NCBI GenBank assembly: GCA_025463365.1
Contig: JAOBWM010000063.1
Coordinates: 1-64,000, forward strand
Source: Acidimicrobiales bacterium
GTDB lineage: Bacteria; Actinomycetota; Acidimicrobiia; Acidimicrobiales; Iamiaceae
DNA: 64,000 bases
Reading direction: 5' to 3'
The number at the start of each line of letters is the position of its first letter. The first letter of the stretch is position 1. The notes under the pieces are model-generated. The model was not told where the DNA came from, did no database searches, and saw nothing but the letters and a program-made list of their open reading frames with translations. Positions 4,885 through 51,717 of the stretch are shown here, in pieces. Both the position numbers and the translations under genes were made by a program.

Positions 4885-5784
4885 GTGACGGCCCCGCCCT
4901 CGACGATCGCGCCGCCCCCTCCTCGCAAGGGGATCGGGCGGCGCGCGTCGCGGGTGCTCTCGCGCCACCCCCGCCTGGAGCTCGCGAGCCTGCTTGGAGC
5001 TCCGCTGACCTGGCTGGTGCTCGTCTACCTGGGATCGCTCGCCGCGCTCCTGGTGACCGCGCTGTACACGACCGACCCGTTCACCGGGAACCTCGTGCAC
5101 ACCACCAGCACGACGAACCTGCACGAGCTCGTCACCAACCGAACGCTTCGCGTCGTCACCCAGCGCACGGTCGGCGTGGCGTTCGCGGTCACCGTGATCG
5201 ACCTCGCGCTCGCGCTCCCCATCGCGTTCTTCATGGCCAAGGTGGCCTCGCCGCGGACCCGGCGGGCGCTCGCGGTGGCGATCGTGCTGCCCCTGTGGGC
5301 GAGCTACCTGGTGAAGGCCTATTGCTGGCGGGTCATCCTGGATCCCGAAGGCGGCGTCTTGAGGAAGGCGTTCGGCGTCTCACCCGGGTTCGGGGTATCC
5401 GGCGCGGTGGTGGTGCTCGCCTACTTGTGGCTGCCCTACATGGTGCTTCCGATCTATGCCGGCCTCGAGAAGCTGCCGAACTCCTTGCTCGACGCCGCGG
5501 GCGACCTCGGGAGCCGCCCGGTCGGGACCTTCCGGTCGGTCGTGCTGCCGCTGCTCAAGCCGGCGATCCTCGCCGGTGCCGTCTTCACCTTCTCGTTGTC
5601 GCTCGGCGACTACATCACCGTCCAGATCGTGGGCGGCAAGGCCCAGCTGATCGGCAACGTCGTCTACCGAGACTTCGGCGCCGGCCTGATCCCGGGAGCT
5701 GCCGCGTTCGCCATCGTGCCGATCCTGATCATGGTGGCGTTCCTCCTCATCGTCCGGCGCAGCGGCGCGCTGGAAAACCTCTGA
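4885..5784 (+). CDS. potB: Polyamine-type ABC permease, PotB-like
   Basis: A 299-residue inner-membrane permease with about six helices and the binding-protein-dependent transport EAA-type loop (DAAGDLGSRPVGTFRSVVLPLLKP), which contacts the ATPase. It starts at GTG 4885, four bases after the binding-protein stop; a proline-rich 35-residue cytoplasmic N-terminus precedes the first helix. It shares one base with the next permease gene (TGATG), so the two are surely co-translated. Confidence 0.88.
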   Translation: MTAPPSTIAPPPPRKGIGRRASRVLSRHPRLELASLLGAPLTWLVLVYLGSLAALLVTALYTTDPFTGNLVHTTSTTNLHELVTNRTLRVVTQRTVGVAFAVTVIDLALALPIAFFMAKVASPRTRRALAVAIVLPLWASYLVKAYCWRVILDPEGGVLRKAFGVSPGFGVSGAVVVLAYLWLPYMVLPIYAGLEKLPNSLLDAAGDLGSRPVGTFRSVVLPLLKPAILAGAVFTFSLSLGDYITVQIVGGKAQLIGNVVYRDFGAGLIPGAAAFAIVPILIMVAFLLIVRRSGALENL

Positions 5785-32446: not shown

Positions 32447-32478
32447 GCGAGTGCCGGGCCTGCAGGCCCGGCACTCGC
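32447..32478. terminator. Perfect 32-bp palindrome, probable bidirectional terminator
   Basis: GCGAGTGCCGGGCCTG is followed at once by its exact reverse complement. It lies between converging genes (the membrane protein and cobF), the usual place of a terminator. No T-run follows on either side, so it could be a Rho-aided stop. Confidence 0.55.
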
Positions 32479-32553: not shown

Positions 32554-33330
32554 TCAAACCCTCGAGGCTCCACCCAGCTGGTCGTTTCGTCGGATCAAGT
32601 ACGTATCCATGATCCAGCCGTGCCGCTCCCGAGCGTCCGCTCGTGCACGGATGATGTCGTCACGCACGTCGGCAACGACGCCCTCGATGAGCATCTCGCT
32701 GGTCGTGCCCAGGTAGGCACCCCAGTAGATGTGGTCAAGGTCGGGCAGGGTCATGAAAGCCGCCGCCCCATCGAGCATGACGACCAGGTCGCAGCCCTCG
32801 GGCACCTCGCCAGCGGCGAGTCGACGGCCTGTGGTGATCTGTACTGGTCGGCCGATGCGGTTGAGGGGGATCCGGTGTCGAGCGGTGAGTGCCTGGATGC
32901 TGCTGATTCCTGGCACCACCACGATCTCGAGACCGGGGACCTGGAGAGCGACGTCGGTGGCGACGCGCAAGGTGCTGTCGAAGAGTGCCGGGTCCCCCCA
33001 GACGAGGAAGGCGCCGACACCGTCCGATGCAAGCTCTGCGTGGACTGCCGCTGCGAGGAGCTCCGCCCGGCGCTGGTGCCAGTCGCGCACGGCGGCGCCA
33101 TAATCGGCGGGGTGGCGGTCACGCTCTGGGTCGGGTAGCCGGACCGTCCGGTACCCCTCATCAGGGCGGTGTCGGCGACACACCGCTTCGCGGAACTGGC
33201 TGAGATCGTGGCGCTCGGGGCCTTTGTCGACCACGAAGAAGACGTCGACGCGCTGCAGGGCGTCGACGGCCTCGAGGGTGATCTGGTCCGGGTGGCCAGC
33301 GCCGATCCCGATGAGGACGAGCTCCGTCAC
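32554..33330 (-). CDS. cobF: Precorrin-6A synthase (deacetylating)
   Basis: A 258-residue SAM methyltransferase of the aerobic cobalamin route: it methylates C1 of precorrin-5 and releases acetate. The TP-methylase motifs are GIGAGHPDQITLEA, GDPALFDSTLRV and VPGISSIQALTA, and the long family-specific C-terminus includes YWGAYLGTTSEML. CobF occurs only in the oxygen-dependent pathway. The GTG start overlaps the stop of the micro-ORF upstream (GTGA). It is the last gene of the minus-strand cob operon. Confidence 0.9.
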   Translation of the reverse strand: MTELVLIGIGAGHPDQITLEAVDALQRVDVFFVVDKGPERHDLSQFREAVCRRHRPDEGYRTVRLPDPERDRHPADYGAAVRDWHQRRAELLAAAVHAELASDGVGAFLVWGDPALFDSTLRVATDVALQVPGLEIVVVPGISSIQALTARHRIPLNRIGRPVQITTGRRLAAGEVPEGCDLVVMLDGAAAFMTLPDLDHIYWGAYLGTTSEMLIEGVVADVRDDIIRARADARERHGWIMDTYLIRRNDQLGGASRV

Positions 33331-33422: not shown

Positions 33423-33796
33423 GGCGGGGTCACCCGGGCAGAAGCCACCGCTACCGCGGCAGTGGCATGGGGCGATCGCTGGGTGGCCACCACAAGCGCG
33501 GCCCCCGGCCCCGCCCCCTCGAGGGCGCAGCCTTCGGCCACCCGGGCGTCGAACCGCGGTACACGGCCGAGCGTCCGGATGGCGCGGTGCTTGTCGACCA
33601 GGGTGGCATCGTCGATCGACATGATCGGAGGCCCGAGCGAGACGCGGCGGTCCCCGGCGAACACCTCGCGGGTGGACACCACCGAGACCGACCAAAGGTC
33701 ATACCCAGCCCGGGCCAGCGTTCGGCACGCCAGATCGAGCACCTCGGACCGCGTGGCTCCCGACGACAGGCCCAGGCCGAGCGACACGCGACTCAC
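33419..33796 (-). CDS. cobE: Cobalamin biosynthesis protein CobE (CbiG C-terminal domain)
   Basis: A 125-residue protein equal to the C-terminal domain of CbiG: SLGLGLSSGATRSEVLDL at the start, PRFDARVAEGCAL in the middle and ATAAVAVASARVTPP at the end. CobE is needed in aerobic cobalamin synthesis in Paracoccus/Pseudomonas relatives; its exact step is unsettled. It starts at GTG 33796, overlapping the cobL stop, and overlaps the vestigial frame downstream. Confidence 0.8.
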   Translation of the reverse strand: MSRVSLGLGLSSGATRSEVLDLACRTLARAGYDLWSVSVVSTREVFAGDRRVSLGPPIMSIDDATLVDKHRAIRTLGRVPRFDARVAEGCALEGAGPGAALVVATQRSPHATAAVAVASARVTPP

Positions 33797-35016
33797 ATCG
33801 GCCCCCACGCGACGAACACCGGGTTCATGGGTTCCATGCGCACGCCAGAGGTGCCGAGCGCGACGCACCGGTCGACGCGTACCTGGATCAGGTTGCCGAG
33901 TCGCGCATGCGCGCCAATCGCACGGTCGAGCAACACGTAGGTGGCCACCACGGTCCCGCCGGGCCGTAGCCGGTCCAGGCACGCGTCGAGAACGTCGATA
34001 CCGCCGCCGCCGATGAAGACCCGGTCAGGGTCGGGCAAGCCGACCAGCGCATCCGGGGCCGACCCGACGACCACGCGCAGATCGACCTGATGATCCGTCG
34101 CGTTCTGTTCGATTCTGGTGGCATTGGAGGAATCGCGCTCGATGGCCCAGACCTCGAGCGCGGGGACGACCGCCGACGCCTCGATGCCCACCGATCCGCT
34201 CCCCGCGCCCACATCCCACAGCACCCCCGTGGCCGGCAGGCAGAGCTTGCCGAGCACGACGGCGCGCACTTCAGCCTTGGTGATCATCCCGTCGCGGTGG
34301 GCAAAGGCGCGCTCGGGGAGACCCCACGCGATGCTCGGGCCGGTCTCTGCGCCTTCGGATGAAAGGAGCACGACCACCGACAGAGGGTCGAAATCCCCAG
34401 CGGCCAGACCCGGCACATCGGTTCGCACCGATCGCTGGTCGGGTTCGCCGATGCGGCTCACGAGCACCACATCCCGGGCGATGCCCTGCTCGCAAAGGGC
34501 TCTGCCCAGCGCCTGTGGGCTGTTGACCGGGTCGGTCAGCACCGCAGCCTTGGTGGAGCGACGCACCGCACTGACGGCCAGCGACAGCGGGCGACCATGT
34601 GCGGAGATCACGGTGGCGTCGTCCCAGTTGGTGCCCGCCTGCGCGAACGCAAGGGCGACCGATGATGGGGCTGGGCGGATGCGAAGCGCGGCAGGGCCAA
34701 GCCGGCGGGCCAGAACGCGCACGATGCCGAAGAAGCCCGGGTCACCGGACGCGAGGACGCACACTCGTTGGCCGAGCGAGCGCCGCCGCTCGATGTGGTC
34801 GATGACGTCGTCGAGCGGTCCCGCCAGGTCGATCATCTCCGGCTCCGAGCAGAGCCGGTGAGGCCCAGCGGCCAGGGCGGCCCGTTGCCGACCCGATCCG
34901 ACCACCACATCGGCGTTGGCGATGGCGAGGCCCGCCTCGGCTCCGAAGACCTCGCCCCCGACCAGCCCAACCACCGAAACGGGGGGCAGCGTCGAGGTGG
35001 CGTCAACGAGCGGCAC
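33793..35016 (-). CDS. cobL: Precorrin-6Y C5,15-methyltransferase (decarboxylating)
   Basis: A 407-residue fusion of CbiE (residues of about 10-200; VVGLVGGEVFG, ASGDPGFFGIVRVLARRLG) and CbiT (about 215-400; WDVGAGSGSVGIEAS is the SAM site). It methylates C5 and C15 and decarboxylates the acetate at C12. GTG at 35016 gives a normal N-terminus and a 14-base overlap with cobM. It lies in the minus-strand operon between cobM and cobE. Confidence 0.9.
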   Translation of the reverse strand: MPLVDATSTLPPVSVVGLVGGEVFGAEAGLAIANADVVVGSGRQRAALAAGPHRLCSEPEMIDLAGPLDDVIDHIERRRSLGQRVCVLASGDPGFFGIVRVLARRLGPAALRIRPAPSSVALAFAQAGTNWDDATVISAHGRPLSLAVSAVRRSTKAAVLTDPVNSPQALGRALCEQGIARDVVLVSRIGEPDQRSVRTDVPGLAAGDFDPLSVVVLLSSEGAETGPSIAWGLPERAFAHRDGMITKAEVRAVVLGKLCLPATGVLWDVGAGSGSVGIEASAVVPALEVWAIERDSSNATRIEQNATDHQVDLRVVVGSAPDALVGLPDPDRVFIGGGGIDVLDACLDRLRPGGTVVATYVLLDRAIGAHARLGNLIQVRVDRCVALGTSGVRMEPMNPVFVAWGPM

Positions 35017-35794
35017 GGTCGCCCTCCGCTGAGGCAGCGCGAAACCTGGTGGCGTAGGCCGAGGCGTACACGTGGCTTCGACGCGGGGGATCGGCCACTG
35101 CCAGGGCTGGGCCGATGAGCAACATGGTGGCCGCGTCGAAGCCCGCCTCCGCGACGGCCTCCACCAAGCCGTCGAGCGTGGTGCGGACGATCTGCTCGTC
35201 GGCCCACGAAACCCGGTGGCCAGCCACCACCGGCGTCGCCGGGTCCAGCGCGGCCTCGCCGTGGACGAGTTCCTCGACCAGCTCGCGCACGTGCCCGATG
35301 GACAAGAACAGGGCAAGCGTGCCACCAGCCGCCGCCGCCGAAGCCAACGACTCGTTCGGTGGCATCGAGGCGCTGGTACGTCGGGCCATCCGGGTCATGA
35401 CGATCGTCTGCGACAGGCCGGGGACCGTGAGCTCGCACCCAGCAGCCGCCGCCGTTGCGGCCACCGAGGTCACGCCGGGGATGACCTCGAACTCGCGGTC
35501 GTTGGCGCGGCACCACGCCACCTGCTCGCCGATGGCGCTGTAGATCGACGTGTCGCCCGAGTGCAGCCGGACGATCGCTGCATCCTGGTGCGCGGCGTAC
35601 ACCGCACAGACCTCGTCGTGGGTCATCGTCTTGGAGTCGTGCACCACGACCCCGGGCGAGCAATGGTCCAGGAGCTCGGCGGGGACGAGCGACGCAGCCC
35701 AGACGACGACTCCGGCCTCTGAGAGGCGCTGCGCCCCCCGCAAGGTGATCAGGTCTGGCGCGCCCGGACCCGCGCCGACGAACGAGATCGTCAC
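35003..35794 (-). CDS. cobM: Precorrin-4 C11-methyltransferase
   Basis: A 263-residue TP-methylase that adds a methyl group at C11. Motifs: FVGAGPGAPDLITLRG, VRLHSGDTSIYSAIGEQ, VIPGVTSVAATAAAAG and VVAGHRVSWADEQIVRTTL, all typical of CobM/CbiF. The GTG start overlaps the stop of the ribbon-helix-helix fusion gene by four bases. Confidence 0.9.
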   Translation of the reverse strand: MTISFVGAGPGAPDLITLRGAQRLSEAGVVVWAASLVPAELLDHCSPGVVVHDSKTMTHDEVCAVYAAHQDAAIVRLHSGDTSIYSAIGEQVAWCRANDREFEVIPGVTSVAATAAAAGCELTVPGLSQTIVMTRMARRTSASMPPNESLASAAAAGGTLALFLSIGHVRELVEELVHGEAALDPATPVVAGHRVSWADEQIVRTTLDGLVEAVAEAGFDAATMLLIGPALAVADPPRRSHVYASAYATRFRAASAEGDRAAR

Positions 35795-36663
35795 GCCGGC
35801 TCCACGGCCGGGAGGATCACCGTCGCGAGGTACGACACCGGGCCGTCACCAAGATCCTCCAGCGCTTCGATCCGCTCGCCCGGCACCCCGAGCAGTTCCC
35901 CCACGCGGGCGAACGGAAGCCGGCCGGTGGCGGCGGCCTGATGACGGATGTGCCCGACATCGGCGCTGCCCTTGTAGACCACGACCGCGTTGAGCTGATC
36001 CGCGAGGAGGTCGTCGGGCACGGCGCCATCGAGGAGCACGACGCGCTGGCCGGGGCGAGCGAGCGTGGTGGCCGTAGCGGCAGCAAGGGCCTGGAACGGA
36101 GCGATGCCCGGCACCATCTCGATGGCGATCGCGGGCCGTTGCTCGGCCACGACGTCGGCCAGGTCGCCGAACACCGACCAGAGCGTCGGGTCGCCGACGG
36201 TCACGACCACGACGACCTCACCGGCATCGAGGGCGGCAACGACCGGGCCCGCCAGGCGGCGCAGCGACGTGGCGCGGCCTTCGCCGTCGGCCGCGATGTC
36301 GTGCACGAGTCGTTCGATGGCGACGGTGGGGGCCACTGCTCGGGCAACCGTCTCGGCCCGACCGATGGATCGGCTGGTCCAGGACATGGCGAACACGCGC
36401 TGGGCGCCAAGCAGGGTGGACCGGGCCAGATCGGTGACGTGCCGCGGATCGCCCGGACCGAGCCCCACGCCGATGAGGAGTGGGCCCTGGCGACGGACCA
36501 CCGCGTGCGAGCCCGAGGGGGCTTCTGGCTCGACGGCCGAGACGGCGAGCAGCCGCTCGATGGCCTGACGGATCAGGTCCGCCTCGGCGCGACCGGAACG
36601 GGCGGCGAGCGCGGCCAGGTCGGCCTTGAGGGGGTCGGGGAGGTAGATCGACGACTTGTGCAC
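35791..36663 (-). CDS. Ribbon-helix-helix domain fused to CobI-like methyltransferase fold
   Basis: A 290-residue protein. Residues 2-41 (HKSSIYLPDPLKADLAALAA ... RQAIERLLA) form a textbook CopG/Arc-type ribbon-helix-helix DNA-binding domain. From about residue 60 it is a precorrin-2 C20-methyltransferase-like TP-methylase (LLIGVGLGPGDPRHVT, VTVGDPTLWSVFGDL, VPGIAPFQALAAATA). A conventional CobI is encoded at 40472, so this is an extra paralogue. It may be a regulator sensing SAM or a corrin intermediate, or a bifunctional enzyme. The start is GTG 36663; ATG is not available in frame. Confidence 0.75.
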   Translation of the reverse strand: MHKSSIYLPDPLKADLAALAARSGRAEADLIRQAIERLLAVSAVEPEAPSGSHAVVRRQGPLLIGVGLGPGDPRHVTDLARSTLLGAQRVFAMSWTSRSIGRAETVARAVAPTVAIERLVHDIAADGEGRATSLRRLAGPVVAALDAGEVVVVVTVGDPTLWSVFGDLADVVAEQRPAIAIEMVPGIAPFQALAAATATTLARPGQRVVLLDGAVPDDLLADQLNAVVVYKGSADVGHIRHQAAATGRLPFARVGELLGVPGERIEALEDLGDGPVSYLATVILPAVEPA

Positions 36664-36674
36664 CGAGGCCGACC

Positions 36675-38051
36675 TTATCGGACATAGGGCGTACGTAGGG
36701 CAGACTGCTGGACCGCGACTGCCGCACACGTGGACACGAATCGTTCAGCCAGATCAGGACGAGCGGCCAGGTGCAGGTGGAGGTACGACGCGAGCAGGGT
36801 GGACGACCCGAAGCCGCCGATGGAAGCTCCCGTCCGGCCCTCCAAGGCAAGCGCGCCGCCTGCCGGGTCGATGGTCGAGTAATGGAACTCGTGGCCTCTC
36901 ACGGCGGTGCCCGCCGGCCCCAGTGGAGTGGCCGCCTGGGTGACGCCGTGCCGGTAGCCGAGCGTGAGCCGGTCGGTCATCGTTGCCCGAGCGTCGATGG
37001 CGCCAACCAACAGGTGGTCGCCCAGCATCTTGCTGAGCCAGAGGAGCCCGCCACACTCTGCCCACACCACCAGGCCGCCAGCCATCGCGGTTCGAACGTC
37101 GGCGAGCAGCGAGCGGTTGTCGGCCAGCGCGCCCCCGTACACCTCGGGGAACCCGCCGCCGGCCACCAGCCCTACGCACGCGTCGGGGAGCCGGGGGTCG
37201 GTGCAGGGGTCGAACTCCAGCAGCTCGGCCCCCGCGGCGCGCAGGGCCTCGAGGTTGTCCGGGTAGCTGAAGCTGAACGCCGGACCGGCAGCCACGGCGA
37301 TCCGAGTTCCCGGGGCGACGGACCGGGGCATGGCCAGGTCGGTCACCGATCGGCCGAGAGGGCGCCGAGCGATGGCGACGAGGCCCTCGAGATCGCACCG
37401 ATCGTCGAGCAGCACCGCGAGCTGGTCCAACGAGCGCGCGATCTCGTCGCGTCGTTCCACCACAGGCACCAGACCCAGGTGACGATCGCGCCACACCAGA
37501 CCGGGATGGCGCCGCAACGCACCGAGGACGGGGATCCCCGACGGAGCCAGCGCAGCACGGAGCATGGCCTCATGGCTGTCGGAGCCGACCCGATTGAGGA
37601 TCACCCCGGCCACCTGTACCCGCGGGTCGAACGTGGCGAACCCGTGCACGACCGCGGCAACCGAGGTGCTGGCCGATGCCGCATCCACCACGAGGACCAT
37701 GGGCGCATCAAGCGCCACGGCGATCTCCGCGGTGGAGGAGGGCGCACCGTCAGCCGCCCCGTCGAACAGTCCCATGACCCCTTCGATCACCAGCACGTCA
37801 CAGCCGGCACCTGCGCGCGCTGCCAGCGCCGGGATCACCTCGAGCCCCGACATCCACGCATCGAGGTTGCGCGACACTCGGCCGGTGGCGAGATGGTGGT
37901 AGCCGGGATCGATGAAGTCGGGCCCGACCTTGGCGGCGCCCACCCGCAGGCCACGGCGGCGCAAGGCGGCCATGACCCCGGTGGCCACCGTGGTCTTACC
38001 GACGCCCGAGTGGGTGCCGGCGATGACCACTCGAGCGCCGAGCGACGTCAC
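36675..38051 (-). CDS. cobB: Cobyrinate a,c-diamide synthase
   Basis: A 458-residue glutamine amidotransferase. Residues 10-20 carry the P-loop (GTHSGVGKTT); VGPDFIDPGYHH, IEGVMGLFDG and the C-terminal amidotransferase core with nucleophile Cys (WAECGGLLWLS) and His in the HEFHYS region follow. It amidates the a and c side chains of hydrogenobyrinic acid. It starts at GTG 38051, one base after the cobO stop; its last codons overlap the putative operator half-sites. Confidence 0.92.
   Translation of the reverse strand: MTSLGARVVIAGTHSGVGKTTVATGVMAALRRRGLRVGAAKVGPDFIDPGYHHLATGRVSRNLDAWMSGLEVIPALAARAGAGCDVLVIEGVMGLFDGAADGAPSSTAEIAVALDAPMVLVVDAASASTSVAAVVHGFATFDPRVQVAGVILNRVGSDSHEAMLRAALAPSGIPVLGALRRHPGLVWRDRHLGLVPVVERRDEIARSLDQLAVLLDDRCDLEGLVAIARRPLGRSVTDLAMPRSVAPGTRIAVAAGPAFSFSYPDNLEALRAAGAELLEFDPCTDPRLPDACVGLVAGGGFPEVYGGALADNRSLLADVRTAMAGGLVVWAECGGLLWLSKMLGDHLLVGAIDARATMTDRLTLGYRHGVTQAATPLGPAGTAVRGHEFHYSTIDPAGGALALEGRTGASIGGFGSSTLLASYLHLHLAARPDLAERFVSTCAAVAVQQSALRTPYVR
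36682..36701. promoter_or_regulatory. Two half-sites matching the cobO/cobG palindrome
   Basis: On the plus strand ACATAGGGC is followed 11 bp later by ACGTAGGGC, differing at one base. The first matches the inner arm of the 51-bp palindrome at 38580 exactly over nine bases (ACATAGGGC as the complement of GCCCTATGT). An 11-bp period suits ribbon-helix-helix dimers. The site falls in the last codons of cobB, about 20 bases ahead of the fusion gene start. Binding is inferred. Confidence 0.45.
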
Positions 38052-38052
38052 G

Positions 38053-38574
38053 TCAGAACTCGATGCCCTTGCGGGCGGTGATGCCCTGGTCCATGGCGTG
38101 CTTGACCTTGACCATCTCGGTGACGGTGTCAGCGATCTCGATGAGCTCAGGCGGCGCGTACCTCCCGGTCATCACCACGTTGGTGCGCGTGGGCCGCGCC
38201 GCGATCACCTCGACGAGGTCACCGACGGGCACCCAGCCGTACTTCACCACGTAGGTCGCCTCATCGAGGATCACCAGGTCGTGATCCCCAGCAGCGATGA
38301 GCTCCGCCGCCCGACCCCAGGCGGCGCGTCCCTTGGCGGCGGTCTCGTCCATGTCGGTGGACTCCCACGTGAACCCGTCGCCCAGCGTGTGCCACTCGAT
38401 GCCCAGGTGCTCGGCCAGCTTGCGCTCTCCGACCTTCCACTTCTCGCTCTTGACGAACTGGACCACCGCGGTGTCCCACCCTCGGGCCCACGACCGGCCC
38501 ATGACCCCCATCGCGGCCGAGCTCTTGCCCTTTCCGGTGCCGGTGTTGATGAGGAAGCGTGATGCGATGGGCAT
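38053..38574 (-). CDS. cobO: Cob(I)yrinic acid a,c-diamide adenosyltransferase
   Basis: A 173-residue CobO/BtuR-type adenosyltransferase, transferring the adenosyl group of ATP to cobalt. P-loop TGTGKGKSSAAMGV, WARGWDTAVVQFVK, LGDGFTWESTD and DLVILDEATYVVKYGW are typical. The ATG at 38574 lies only five bases from the 51-bp palindrome, so its expression should be controlled there. It is the first gene of the minus-strand operon. Confidence 0.92.
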   Translation of the reverse strand: MPIASRFLINTGTGKGKSSAAMGVMGRSWARGWDTAVVQFVKSEKWKVGERKLAEHLGIEWHTLGDGFTWESTDMDETAAKGRAAWGRAAELIAAGDHDLVILDEATYVVKYGWVPVGDLVEVIAARPTRTNVVMTGRYAPPELIEIADTVTEMVKVKHAMDQGITARKGIEF

Positions 38575-38579
38575 CTGTC

Positions 38580-38630
38580 GGACCGTACCACCCACATAGG
38601 GTGGACTGCCCTATGTGGGTGGTACGGTCC
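38580..38630. promoter_or_regulatory. 51-bp perfect inverted repeat between cobO and cobG
   Basis: Two 22-bp arms are exact reverse complements around the 7-base spacer TGGACTG. The arms end inward in ACATAGGG and CCCTATGT. The element fills nearly the whole 60-bp gap between the divergent cobO (start 38574) and cobG (start 38635), leaving almost no room for separate ribosome sites. A dimeric DNA-binding protein, such as the ribbon-helix-helix fusion in the operon, is the simplest reader. TATGTG hexamers on each arm could serve as divergent -10 elements. Confidence 0.7.
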
Positions 38631-38634
38631 CCAC

Positions 38635-39843
38635 GTGCCGCCGATCGCCCAACTCCCCGTGGTCCGTGGGGTGTGCCCCGGGGTGACGACCCCCCTCGAA
38701 GCGGCCGACGGCATGCTGCTCCGGGTCCGCGTGCCGGGCGGCTCGCTCTCCGCTGCGGGGCTGCGCACCATCGCCGAGGTGGCGGAGCGCTGGGGCACCG
38801 GGTCCATCGAGCTCACGGCACGCGCCAACGTGCAGGTTCGGGGACTCGACGCCGTCGATGTGGGCGCGGCGTCCGACCTGATCGTGGCGGCCGGGCTGGC
38901 GCACCCCGACGCGGACCGTGACGGCCGACGCGATGTCGTCGGCCCGCCCCTGGCTGGCCACGACCCGACGGAACTGCTCGACGTGTCGAGCCTGGTGGCG
39001 GAGATCGCCGCGTCGCTGGCTGGCGCCGATGGGCTCACATCGCTTCCGGCCAAGTTCTGCGTGACGATCGATGGCGGCGGCGCCGCCGGTGTCCGCGCCG
39101 TTCCGGCCGACGTCGCGCTCGGTGCCCTACGGGTCGACGATGCCACCGTCGGGTTCCAGGTCGAGTTCGGTCGACCCCTCGATGCGGGCAACGACAGCCA
39201 GGCAACCGGCGACCGGATCGTCCACATCCCCATTGGCGCTGCCGTGCCCCTGGTGCTCGCCGCCGCCCGCCTGGCGGCAGCATCAGGTACCCGGCTCCAG
39301 GCTCGCGCGGCCGTCGCCCTGGTCCCCGATCATCGGATCGCGACCGCAGCCCGACCGCCGATCCAAACCGGCGACGAGCAGAGCCGGATCCACCAATCAG
39401 TTGGCCTCCTCCCGCACCGCCGTGCTGGCCGGGCCAGCCTCGGTGCGGCTCCGTTGCTCGGACGCACCACACCGGCGGCACTCCGAGTGGTCGCCGCCAT
39501 CGCCGATGAGCACGCGGCATCAGTCCGGCTCACACCGTGGCGGGGGTTGATCATCACCGACCTCCCCGCCGCAGAAGCAGCGAGAGCGCAGGCTGCGCTG
39601 ACCGACGTCGGCCTCTCGAGCGATCCGTCTGCGTCGAGCCACCGGGTGTCGGCCTGCATCGGGTCACCGGGGTGCGCATCGTCTCGGGCTGACACCCTGG
39701 CCGCAGCCGCTGCGCTGCTGGGTGCACCCGATCCGATCGTGCGGCGGATCCACCTGTCTGGGTGCGAGAAGGCGTGCGGGGCGGCGACCTCCGAGATCCA
39801 CATCGCCGACGAGCACGGCCACTTCCCGCGGATCGGTCGATGA
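38635..39843 (+). CDS. cobG: Precorrin-3B synthase
   Basis: A 402-residue oxygen-dependent enzyme of the nitrite/sulfite-reductase family that hydroxylates precorrin-3A at C20. The siroheme/4Fe-4S cysteines are seen in CIGSPGCASSRADTL and LSGCEKACG. CobG marks the aerobic route and is absent from several actinobacteria. The GTG start lies four bases after the palindrome; the end overlaps cobH by four bases. Confidence 0.88.
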   Translation: MPPIAQLPVVRGVCPGVTTPLEAADGMLLRVRVPGGSLSAAGLRTIAEVAERWGTGSIELTARANVQVRGLDAVDVGAASDLIVAAGLAHPDADRDGRRDVVGPPLAGHDPTELLDVSSLVAEIAASLAGADGLTSLPAKFCVTIDGGGAAGVRAVPADVALGALRVDDATVGFQVEFGRPLDAGNDSQATGDRIVHIPIGAAVPLVLAAARLAAASGTRLQARAAVALVPDHRIATAARPPIQTGDEQSRIHQSVGLLPHRRAGRASLGAAPLLGRTTPAALRVVAAIADEHAASVRLTPWRGLIITDLPAAEAARAQAALTDVGLSSDPSASSHRVSACIGSPGCASSRADTLAAAAALLGAPDPIVRRIHLSGCEKACGAATSEIHIADEHGHFPRIGR

Positions 39844-40469
39844 GCTTCTCCTACGAGCGAGACGGTGCCGCCATCTATGCCGAGTCGTTCGCGATCATCC
39901 GCTCGGAGGCTGACCTCACAGCGGTGCCGAGCGATCTCGAAGCGGTCGTGGTCCGCATGATCCACGCCTGTGGCATGACCGATCTGCCCCCGCTGGTCGC
40001 CGCCTCGCCCGGGTTCGCCACGATCACCCGAGCCGCGCTGGCCAGCGGGGCGGCGATCTTCGCCGATGCCCAGATGGTGGCCAACGGTGTGACCCGCTCC
40101 CGGCTTCCTGACGACAACGCCGTCGTGTGCACACTTGCCGAGCCGGGCGTGCTCGAGGCCGCCGCCGCGGCTGGGACGACGCGATCTGCTGCGGCGATCG
40201 AGCGTTGGCTCCCCCGCATCGATGGAGCGATCGCCGTGTTCGGCAATGCCCCGACCGCCCTGTTCCGGCTGCTCGAGCTGATCCTCGACGGCCGGGCTCG
40301 ACCCGCCGCGATCATCGGCTTGCCGGTCGGCTTCGTGGGGGCGGCCGAATCGAAGGATGCCCTGGCATCGATCGACCATGGGATCCCGTACCTCATCGTG
40401 CGGGGCCGCCGAGGAGGCAGCGCCATGGCTGCTGCTGCGGTGAACGCACTGGCGAGCGAGAAGGAGTGA
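39840..40469 (+). CDS. cobH: Precorrin-8X methylmutase
   Basis: A 209-residue CobH/CbiC protein that moves the methyl group from C11 to C12, giving hydrogenobyrinic acid. Catalytic His lies in VVRMIHACGMTD; FADAQMVANGV, GNAPTALFRLLELI and GLPVGFVGAAESK are characteristic. The ATG overlaps the cobG stop (ATGA), and cobI starts two bases after its stop. Confidence 0.92.
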   Translation: MSFSYERDGAAIYAESFAIIRSEADLTAVPSDLEAVVVRMIHACGMTDLPPLVAASPGFATITRAALASGAAIFADAQMVANGVTRSRLPDDNAVVCTLAEPGVLEAAAAAGTTRSAAAIERWLPRIDGAIAVFGNAPTALFRLLELILDGRARPAAIIGLPVGFVGAAESKDALASIDHGIPYLIVRGRRGGSAMAAAAVNALASEKE

Positions 40470-40471
40470 CG

Positions 40472-41194
40472 ATGGCGAAGCTGTATGGGGTGGGCGTGGG
40501 TCCGGGTGACCCCGAGCTCATGACCGTGAAGGCCCGGCGAGCCTTGGCCGAGTGCCCGGTCATCGCCTACTTCGCGGCGCGCCGCAGCCGCGGCAACGGG
40601 TTTGCGGTGGTCGAGCCGTTCGTCGAGGACCACCATCAGTTGCTACGTCTCACCTATCCCGTCACCACCGAGTCCGTGGACCGGGCCGACTACGAGCGGG
40701 CCATCGGTGCGTTCTACGACGAGTCTGCTCGGGCAATCGAGGAGCACCTCATCGCCGACCGCGACGTGGCCGTGGTCTGCGAGGGCGACCCGTTCTTCTA
40801 CGGCAGCTACATGTACATCCACGAGCGGCTCGCCGATCGCCACCCCACCGAAGTGATCCCCGGGGTCACCTCGTTCTCCGCTGCGGCGGCGGCGGCCGGT
40901 CGCCCGCTCGTGTCGATGAACGAGACGCTCACGGTGATCCCCGGGGTCCTTCCTCCCGACGAGCTCAAGGAGGCGCTGGCGCGCGTCGATGCGGCCGTCG
41001 TCATGAAGGTTGGGCGCCGGCTGCCTGCGGTCCGCGAGGCCGTGGAGGCGTGCGGGCATGGGGACCGCGCGATCTACGTCGAACGGGCGAGTTGCGAGTC
41101 CGAACGCGTGCTGCCATTGACCGAGACCCGTGACCTCGATGCGCCGTACTTCTCACTGGTGCTGATCCCCGGCACGGGCATCGCCGAACGATGA
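40472..41194 (+). CDS. cobI: Precorrin-2 C20-methyltransferase
   Basis: A 240-residue TP-methylase methylating C20 of precorrin-2. GVGVGPGDPELMTVKA, CEGDPFFYGSYMYIHERL and VIPGVTSFSAAAAAAGRPL match canonical CobI closely, so this is the biosynthetic enzyme while the ribbon-helix-helix fusion is the extra paralogue. AAGGAG precedes the ATG within the cobH end, and the stop overlaps cobJ (ATGA). Confidence 0.92.
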   Translation: MAKLYGVGVGPGDPELMTVKARRALAECPVIAYFAARRSRGNGFAVVEPFVEDHHQLLRLTYPVTTESVDRADYERAIGAFYDESARAIEEHLIADRDVAVVCEGDPFFYGSYMYIHERLADRHPTEVIPGVTSFSAAAAAAGRPLVSMNETLTVIPGVLPPDELKEALARVDAAVVMKVGRRLPAVREAVEACGHGDRAIYVERASCESERVLPLTETRDLDAPYFSLVLIPGTGIAER

Positions 41195-41985
41195 CCACCG
41201 CCATCGCCAAGGTAGGCCGGCTTGCCGTCGTCGGCATCGGCCCGGGACGGCTCGGATGGTGCACCCCGGAGGTGGCGGACCGGATCGCCTCGGCCACCGA
41301 CCTGGTCGGCTACACCACGTACCTCGACCTGGTGGCGGTGGCCACCGATGCTCGCCGGCATGGATCCGACAACCGGGTCGAGGCCAAGCGCGCCGCTGCC
41401 GCGCTCGACCTGGCCGCGGCTGGCAGGGACGTGGTGGTGGTGTCCTCGGGTGACCCCGGCGTGTTCGCCATGGCGAGCGCGGTCGTGGAGCAACTCGACC
41501 GCTCCCCCGGCAAGTGGGACCACGTGCCCGTCGACGTGCTCCCCGGGGTCTCGGCCGCCCACGCCCTCGCTTCGCGGGTGGGCGCTCCCCTGGGCCACGA
41601 CTTCTGCACCATCTCGCTGTCCGACGTCCTCAAGCCGTGGGATGTGATCGAGCGGAGGCTCGATGCTGCAGCCGGTGCCGATTTCGTGATCGCGCTCTAC
41701 AACCCAACGTCACGCCACCGCCCCTGGCAGTTCGGTCGGGCACTCGAGGTGATCGGCGAGCACCGGACTCCGGATACGCCGATGATCGTGGGGCGAGACG
41801 TCGGTCGACCAGACGAGCACGTGCAGGTGGTGACCCTGGCCACCTGCGAAACAGCGGCCATCGACATGCGCACCGCAGTGATCATCGGTTCGTCCACCAC
41901 CAGGGTCGTGCCGGGACGCCCACTGGCCAGCAGCGTCTACACGCCGCGCTGGTACGACCGTTCAGCCACCCACGCCACCGCGTGA
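41191..41985 (+). CDS. cobJ: Precorrin-3B C17-methyltransferase
   Basis: A 264-residue TP-methylase causing ring contraction by methylating C17. Motifs: VVGIGPGRLGWCTPEV, VGYTTYLDLV, VVSSGDPGVFAMASAV, VLPGVSAAHALASRVGAPLG and ALYNPTSRHR. It is the last gene of the plus-strand operon; its 3' end overlaps the converging cobK by 49 bases, an unusual tail-to-tail overlap. Confidence 0.92.
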   Translation: MTTAIAKVGRLAVVGIGPGRLGWCTPEVADRIASATDLVGYTTYLDLVAVATDARRHGSDNRVEAKRAAAALDLAAAGRDVVVVSSGDPGVFAMASAVVEQLDRSPGKWDHVPVDVLPGVSAAHALASRVGAPLGHDFCTISLSDVLKPWDVIERRLDAAAGADFVIALYNPTSRHRPWQFGRALEVIGEHRTPDTPMIVGRDVGRPDEHVQVVTLATCETAAIDMRTAVIIGSSTTRVVPGRPLASSVYTPRWYDRSATHATA

Positions 41986-51290: not shown

Positions 51291-51325
51291 TGGGAATCTC
51301 CATCCTCGTGGTTGTCAATGGCTTG

Positions 51326-51470
51326 GCGGTGTCCTGGCTCCCAGATCAGCGCTTCCCTCCGCCTTCCAACCAAACGGCCGTGGCTTCGTGGAGGGTTGCT
51401 CCCTGGTGACAGTTGCGGGACAGCCCCGGATTTGCACCGGTGTTCCCGACAAGCGATCGGCAACGTAGCA
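51326..51470 (-). ncRNA. Cobalamin riboswitch upstream of cbtB
   Basis: Read leftward, the strand contains GGGAACACCGGTGCAAATC, CCCGCAACTGTCACC, GCCACGG and then GGGAGCCAGGACACC, matching the conserved core and 3' part of the cobalamin riboswitch. It lies 35 bases before cbtB and should reduce cbtB-cbtA-fhuF-cobN-chlID expression when adenosylcobalamin is plentiful. Ends are approximate. Confidence 0.88.
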
Positions 51471-51510: not shown

Positions 51511-51662
51511 TGCGCTACCGTGCGCCCCGCCACGGAATGGGAAGTCGGTGCAAGTCCGACACGGTCCCGCCGCTGTAACCGGGGAGCGAACCTCGAACGA
51601 TGCCACTGGGCCCTCGGGCCTGGGAAGGCTGAGGGAAACACCGATCCGGGAGTCAGAAGACC
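51511..51662 (+). ncRNA. Cobalamin riboswitch upstream of cobU
   Basis: Reading rightward: GGGAAGTCGGTGCAAGTCC, CGGTCCCGCCGCTGTAACC, GCCACTGG, CCTGGGAAGG and CCGGGAGTCAGAAGACC, the canonical conserved segments. It starts about 40 bases from the divergent riboswitch and should control cobU-cobS-cobD-cobC-fusion. Ends are approximate. Confidence 0.9.
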
Positions 51663-51717
51663 ATCCGTGGTGGACAAGTGGGCCTCGCGCCTGCTCCACG
51701 AGGATGGAGATCACACC

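Follow-up and report, generated by a model that had tools for sequence, protein, structure and literature searches.

A perfect palindrome between divergent cob operons, likely the shared operator of an autoregulatory RHH-CbiL fusion

In bacteria, control of the genes for B12 biosynthesis is commonly attributed to cobalamin riboswitches, which respond to the end product. The window analysed here, a stretch of 64,000 nucleotides from an Acidimicrobiales genome (assembly GCA_025463365.1, contig JAOBWM010000063.1), raises the question of what a long and perfect palindrome does in the short gap between the divergent genes cobO and cobG. An earlier note had read it as a shared operator, tied to a nearby ribbon-helix-helix (RHH) gene, and this reading is supported, since both of its parts survive independent comparative tests. 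The palindrome is likely the shared operator of an autoregulatory repressor of corrin-ring synthesis, RHH-CbiL, an assignment that rests on comparative inference, without binding, expression or start-site data.

The palindrome in the cobO/cobG gap

The gap measures 60 bp, from the ATG of cobO (38574, minus strand) to the GTG of cobG (38635, plus strand), and the palindrome occupies 51 of them. Its arms are complementary at 22 of 22 positions around a 7-nt spacer (GGACCGTACCACCCACATAGGG-TGGACTG-CCCTATGTGGGTGGTACGGTCC). Among the perfect short-spacer inverted repeats of the window it is the longest, and it is present once in the 4.3-Mb assembly, where about 6e-5 repeats with 22-bp arms would be expected by chance (4.31 Mb). 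The description given in the earlier note, a perfect 51-bp palindrome with two 22-bp arms and a 7-base spacer filling most of the gap, was thus confirmed. To the left the gene order is cobO, cobB, a 290-aa RHH-CbiL fusion, cobM, cbiET and cobF, and to the right cobG, cobH, cobI and cobJ (Table 1). Directly downstream of cobF there is another perfect palindrome, of 16+16 nt without spacer (32447-32478), perhaps a terminator.

Table 1. Coordinates of genes, half-sites and putative promoter elements in the window
Feature	Position	Strand	Evidence
cobF	32554..33330	-	profile match
cbiET (cobL-type) fusion	33793..34983	-	profile match
cobM	35003..35794	-	254.2 bits vs cut-off 259.65
RHH-CbiL fusion, 290 aa, proposed autoregulatory repressor	35791..36663	-	PF01402 E 3e-5, PF00590 E 6.8e-24; PDB CbiL 8xj3, VapB26 5x3t
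Possible -10 box TAAGGT of the fusion gene, 8 nt before GTG	36672..36677	-	sequence; inference
cobB	36675..38051	-	profile matches
Putative operator half-site CCCTATGT before the fusion gene, overlapping the cobB 3' end	36682..36689	-	sequence
Putative operator half-site CCCTACGT before the fusion gene, 11 bp from the other	36693..36700	-	sequence
cobO, first gene of the leftward operon	38053..38574	-	profile matches
51-bp perfect palindrome, likely shared operator with two mirrored -10 boxes	38580..38630	.	22/22 arms, single genomic copy, core kept in relatives
Probable -10 box TACGGT of cobO, 7 nt before ATG	38582..38587	-	TAnnnT at starts of related gaps; leaderless start inferred
Putative operator half-site CCCTATGT, cobO side	38594..38601	-	sequence; inverted pair in relatives
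Putative operator half-site CCCTATGT, cobG side, 15 bp from the cobO-side half-site	38609..38616	+	sequence; inverted pair in relatives
Probable -10 box TACGGT of cobG, 6 nt before GTG	38623..38628	+	TAnnnT at starts of related gaps; leaderless start inferred
cobG, first gene of the rightward operon, aerobic pathway	38635..39843	+	TIGR02435 above cut-off
cobH	39840..40469	+	profile match
cobI, full separate precorrin-2 C20-methyltransferase	40463..41194	+	TIGR01467 226 bits vs cut-off 163
cobJ	41191..41985	+	profile match

The palindrome appears to be built in two layers, with an inner inverted pair of CCCTAYGT octamers 15 bp apart and outer arms that likely represent two mirrored -10 boxes, TACGGT. 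In this regard, 13 starts were identified on the flanks of seven such gaps, and at every one of them a TAnnnT sequence lies 6-8 nt upstream of the start codon, compared with a background of 0.28% of start-like triplets in the window. Boxes placed 6-7 nt before the start codons make leaderless transcription of both operons probable, although the start sites themselves are inferred and no transcription-start data support them. Both TANNNT -10 boxes and leaderless transcripts have been documented in M. tuberculosis, where they are over-represented in toxin-antitoxin modules (PMC3898074).

Alignment of the same gap in related genomes, which the earlier note had asked for, revealed that the CCCTAYGT pair recurs at cobG divergent promoters in the 15-bp register, with imperfect arms. 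The inverted pair in this register is shown for the own genome and for G011, G084, G187, G380, L036 and L039, with one mismatch allowed in G187, L036 and L039. On the other hand, arm complementarity is perfect in the own genome only (22/22) and falls to 19/22 in G187 and G220, 18/22 in G380 and 17/22 in G011; L036 and L039 were left out of this 22-bp comparison, and the 15-bp core pair alone was used there. In the gap of G220, the nearest copy to that of G187, the sequence aligns in register with a degraded left half-site (CCCTACAC) and fails the one-mismatch pair test. The outer symmetry stems from the mirrored -10 boxes, and relatives keep it only in part, so that only the inner pair, and not the whole palindrome, can be regarded as the conserved operator core, a first refinement of the earlier reading. 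If an ancestrally imperfect layout became fully symmetric in this genome alone, template-switch homogenisation would be a fitting cause; such homogenisation is known to occur in inverted repeats (e.g. PMC8604942), but here it remains one possible inference.

Three genomes help to delimit this pattern. G182 has a divergent cobG|cobO arrangement with no fusion gene in the assembly and no motif pair in the gap, and serves as a negative control from a single genome. In G084 the inverted pair is present and no fusion was found in a fragmented assembly, and in G380, which also carries the pair, the fusion match begins at a contig edge and its RHH end is not visible. Matches resembling cobG in G050, G099, G102 and G144 are about 30% identical, have no other cob gene in the part of their flanks that was read and are probably nitrite/sulfite reductases; they were excluded as cobG.

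Two readings of the palindrome that involve no regulatory protein can be weighed against these data. In the first, it acts as RNA, forming a hairpin in the 5' leader of one operon or of both that works as an attenuator, as a block to translation or as a bidirectional terminator, and the very stable fold of the strand (-32.5 kcal/mol with DNA parameters, z -9.6) speaks for it. Against it, merely 4-5 nt separate the hairpin from the start codon, and the putative -10 boxes are located inside the arms, so that the hairpin would not be transcribed. Moreover, there is no T-run and no match to any Rfam family, RF00174 being absent from the gap in a scan of the window, and relatives conserve the inner motif and not the stem pairing, all of which makes this reading very unlikely. 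The second, a copy of a mobile element or repeat family (MITE, REP or an inserted terminal repeat) in the promoter, draws on the fact that such elements typically have long and perfect inverted repeats. It is all but excluded by the single copy in the genome, by a 60-bp gap too small for an insert, and by related cobO|cobG gaps that share the position and the 7-nt spacer despite a different outer sequence. The hairpin, terminator and mobile-element readings were accordingly rejected on fold context, copy number, the negative Rfam scan and the gaps of relatives.

A paired motif that accompanies the RHH domain

The earlier note had also reported the inner motif again at 36682-36701, as two copies 11 bp apart before the RHH gene, and this claim held (36682-36689 and 36693-36700). 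Both octamer copies overlap the last codons of cobB. The genome-wide search for GCCCTAYGT proposed in the same note led to a second refinement, as single copies elsewhere proved to be background: the lone CCCTAYGT octamer has 96 matches in the genome compared with 81 for a reversed-pattern control and is uninformative, therefore only pairs were used. The 4.3-Mb genome contains just two paired CCCTAYGT sites, one inverted (the palindrome) and one tandem (before the fusion gene), which are 2 kb apart. The reversed-pattern control for pairs gave no match in this genome, and near-matches of pairs at two mismatches occurred there at control level only.

Across the order, a motif-first scan of 397 genomes looked for exact tandem pairs 3-4 bp apart and exact inverted pairs 6-8 bp apart. 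Tandem pairs were found in 18 genomes, in 14 of them directly upstream of an RHH-CbiL gene, and inverted pairs in 5, of which 4 are at a cobG promoter; the reversed-pattern controls yielded 2 tandem and 0 inverted pairs. A protein-first test, which searched for either kind of pair within 150 bp upstream of homologues from a protein search, showed the same co-occurrence. With at most one mismatch a pair precedes 7 of 9 RHH-bearing genes and none of 19 RHH-less homologues (Fisher p 3e-5), and with at most three mismatches 8 of 9 against 0 of 19 (p 3e-6). The named relatives with the fusion are Acidimicrobiales-type MAGs, and in several of them, L035, L036, L037 and L039, the pattern is found again, either before the fusion gene or in the cobG gap. 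G011, which fails at one mismatch upstream of its fusion, has an exact inverted pair at its cobO|cobG operon promoter, and G033 keeps the fusion without a paired motif and shows a cobalamin riboswitch instead, between the fusion gene and cobB. The latter (L120, 11739-11870), upstream of the one fusion without a CCCTAYGT pair, may represent an intermediate state.

A coding constraint on cobB was considered as the source of the tandem copies, and it is possible for the own genome, G187 and G220; at other loci the pair is also met outside cobB. Since in distant loci the tandem pair is found outside cobB or in other reading frames, a conserved cobB tail does not account for it. As separate observations, an exact tandem CCCTACGT pair was met directly before the start codon of an unidentified gene with no fusion nearby (L193 of G400, 4918-4937), and a perfect 22-bp palindrome, ACATAGGGGAATTCCCCTATGT, in an AT-rich stretch (L164/L197, G070:C25:44210-44231) has no cob gene found nearby and is probably unrelated.

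The RHH-CbiL protein, VapB antitoxins and riboswitches

The RHH domain of the 290-aa protein passes the PF01402 profile with 24.2 bits (cut-off 20.5), as do the L036 and L037 proteins, with no such match in the L035 protein at E 0.001 in the profile search. The rest is a tetrapyrrole methylase (PF00590) nearest to CbiL/CobI, which scores 118.1 bits with TIGR01467, below the equivalog cut-off of 163.25. Sequence searches of the PDB gave CbiL as the best matches for the body (8xj3, 2qbu, 2e0k) and VapB26 as the sole RHH chain matched by the tip (5x3t, E 7.8e-5). A structure model of the fusion (7 sequences, mean pLDDT 75) places RHH helices at residues 10-23 and 27-43, followed by a methylase fold whose best structural matches in the PDB are again CbiL; the model is a monomer only, with low confidence for residues 1-5. 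In comparison with the C20-methyltransferases CbiL and CobI, which act on precorrin-2 or cobalt-factor II and share with it domain and fold, the fusion thus differs by the extra RHH, the sub-cut-off score, a drifted active-site motif and the presence of a separate full CobI in the same genome.

The drift concerns the motif TLGDPNxYSTF, which reads TVGDPTLWSVF in the fusion of the window. Fusions from anaerobic-type clusters retain the motif or keep near it; drifted versions occur in clusters with cobG and a separate CobI, such as TLGDPSMWSVF in G187 and VLGDPTQWAPF in G011, and L035, also with cobG and cobI, retains TLGDPNAYSTF. The fusion of the own genome is about 70% identical to those of G187 and G220, in line with its enzyme neighbours, and is therefore under selection. 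A possible view is that the CbiL domain is moving from catalysis to sensing in some lineages, activity and ligand being here inferred without any assay.

The RHH domain is VapB-antitoxin-like, a kinship shown by the match to VapB26 and by the operator layout of standalone RHH genes. Of 74 such genes, 61 have two CCATAYGT-type half-sites at a distance of 11-12 bp within 60 bp upstream of the start, with no more than 4 mismatches in 16 positions, compared with about 1 of 74 in shuffled sequences; gene L045, for instance, carries CCCTACCT-N4-CCCTATGT. Place and spacing agree with those of the pair before RHH-CbiL, where a single base is different, CCCTAYGT versus CCATAYGT. These standalone relatives themselves look like VapB antitoxins, and autoregulation is known for VapBC29 (PMC6118392). 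VapB-type antitoxins such as VapB26 and VapB29 therefore resemble the fusion in RHH sequence and in a half-site pair about one helical turn apart that abuts the start codon. They differ in half-site, and the fusion has a CbiL-like C-terminal part and no toxin gene: no VapC (PIN) toxin is adjacent and no toxin-binding tail is present, the C-terminal part being TP_methylase and the neighbours cob genes. The cobG|cobO site departs further from VapB-type operators in being inverted, with a 15-bp register.

These data bear on a further rival, in which the palindrome is the operator of a different, unlinked transcription factor and RHH-CbiL an enzyme whose N-terminal domain is incidental. It is common for an operator to serve a regulator encoded elsewhere, and there are no binding data for RHH-CbiL. 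However, the motif follows the RHH domain and not the methylase (7-8 of 9 versus 0 of 19), its layout equals that of standalone RHH antitoxin genes, and the cobG|cobO gap of a fusion-less genome lacks it, which leaves this rival unlikely.

Cobalamin riboswitches (RF00174), the RNA elements that control cob operons elsewhere, were found upstream of the CbiL gene or its operon in the RHH-less loci L011, L013, L127, L128 and L129; riboswitch-looking leaders were not counted in L015, L018 and L022, unconfirmed by Rfam, or in L021 and L023, with weak scores. None was seen directly upstream of the fusion gene in the scanned operator-bearing loci, some of which have one at another B12 gene. The operator thus differs from this RNA element, which is not found at the palindrome, and is apparently used in its place, as seems likely. 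In the window, the only RF00174 matches are at 51307-51469 (-) and 51538-51663 (+), indicating that other B12 genes of the own genome are under RNA control. These two riboswitches are divergent and lie between CbtA-like and cobS-like genes, named by eye.

Proposed regulation and history of the fusion

In the mechanism proposed, the palindrome would serve two divergent promoters for both halves of the aerobic corrin-ring pathway, cobO-cobB-[RHH-CbiL]-cobM-cbiET... and cobG-H-I-J. Dimers of RHH-CbiL, produced from the third gene of the leftward operon, would occupy both CCCTAYGT half-sites and block both -10 regions, excluding RNA polymerase from the two promoters at once, and binding to the tandem pair before its own gene would make the protein self-limiting. 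The CbiL-like domain is the likely sensor, with a corrin intermediate (precorrin-2 or cobalt-factor II) or SAM/SAH as its putative ligand, whose binding may alter DNA affinity and so adjust the operons to flux. Whereas the operator assignment is a strong comparative inference, protein-DNA binding, the sign of regulation and the ligand are all inferred.

It is possible, on the other hand, that RHH-CbiL binds as proposed but activates the operons or merely holds them constant, the CbiL domain being an enzyme only, without sensing. The anaerobic-type loci that were read show no separate CbiL and an intact methylase motif, which makes a catalytic role of the domain probable in these clusters. VapB-like RHH proteins, for their part, are able to regulate themselves with no small ligand involved. 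However, the half-sites lie between or over the -10 boxes, in the position of a repressor, and aerobic clusters with a separate CobI keep the fusion under selection although TLGDPNxYSTF has drifted.

As a repressor of its own pathway, RHH-CbiL would be closest in logic to PutA, an autogenous repressor with an N-terminal RHH fused to a metabolic enzyme of the pathway (PMC5293562). It meets the marks of a PutA-like trigger enzyme, in that an RHH is fused to an enzyme-type domain of the pathway proposed as its target and, by comparative evidence only, a paired motif is present at its own and at the pathway promoters. Unlike PutA, the fusion has a corrin methylase and no PRODH/P5CDH, belongs to biosynthesis and not catabolism, carries a VapB-like RHH and suggests no membrane switch. 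BzdR-type regulators likewise join a DNA-binding domain to an enzyme-like domain (PMC3602430), with other domains and another pathway. The open-access literature searched, which leaves out most subscription papers, yielded no account of a regulator that combines an RHH with a corrin methylase, and control of B12 synthesis by such a fusion is undescribed within that literature.

A bolder reading can be put forward, for which the present evidence falls a little short of an even case. An RHH module from a toxin-antitoxin system would have been captured onto CbiL, giving a one-piece regulator of the corrin pathway that stands in for the riboswitch; where an aerobic cluster also encodes a separate CobI, the methylase half would no longer be catalytic and would be given over to sensing a corrin intermediate or SAM/SAH, acting on both pathway halves via one symmetric operator. 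If true, this would be a protein switch made from a pathway enzyme and able to sense an early intermediate, with an enzyme domain caught en route to a sensor. Core metabolism would, moreover, have taken over the DNA-binding domain of an antitoxin, whose operator code has apparently changed by one base. Such a switch would also offer a testable half-site, two defined operators in the own genome and riboswitch-bearing relatives as a natural comparison.

Concerning the history of the fusion, the protein tree gives no single origin for the RHH-bearing proteins and forces two changes, with which loss in some genomes and more than one gain are both compatible, either being possible. In two genomes of the same genus, G003 and G009, CbiL lacks the RHH and its operon is preceded by a riboswitch (among L128, L129, L184 and L185), and the closest copies of the window's cluster, in G187 and G220 (about 70% in the fusion), belong to other families, a combination that suggests horizontal exchange of the cluster. 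Finally, G087 has a second RHH-CbiL copy (L122, G087:C135, 9758-10611) that is split in two pieces, as is the adjacent cobB, next to an intact operator; it may be a pseudogene or an assembly error.
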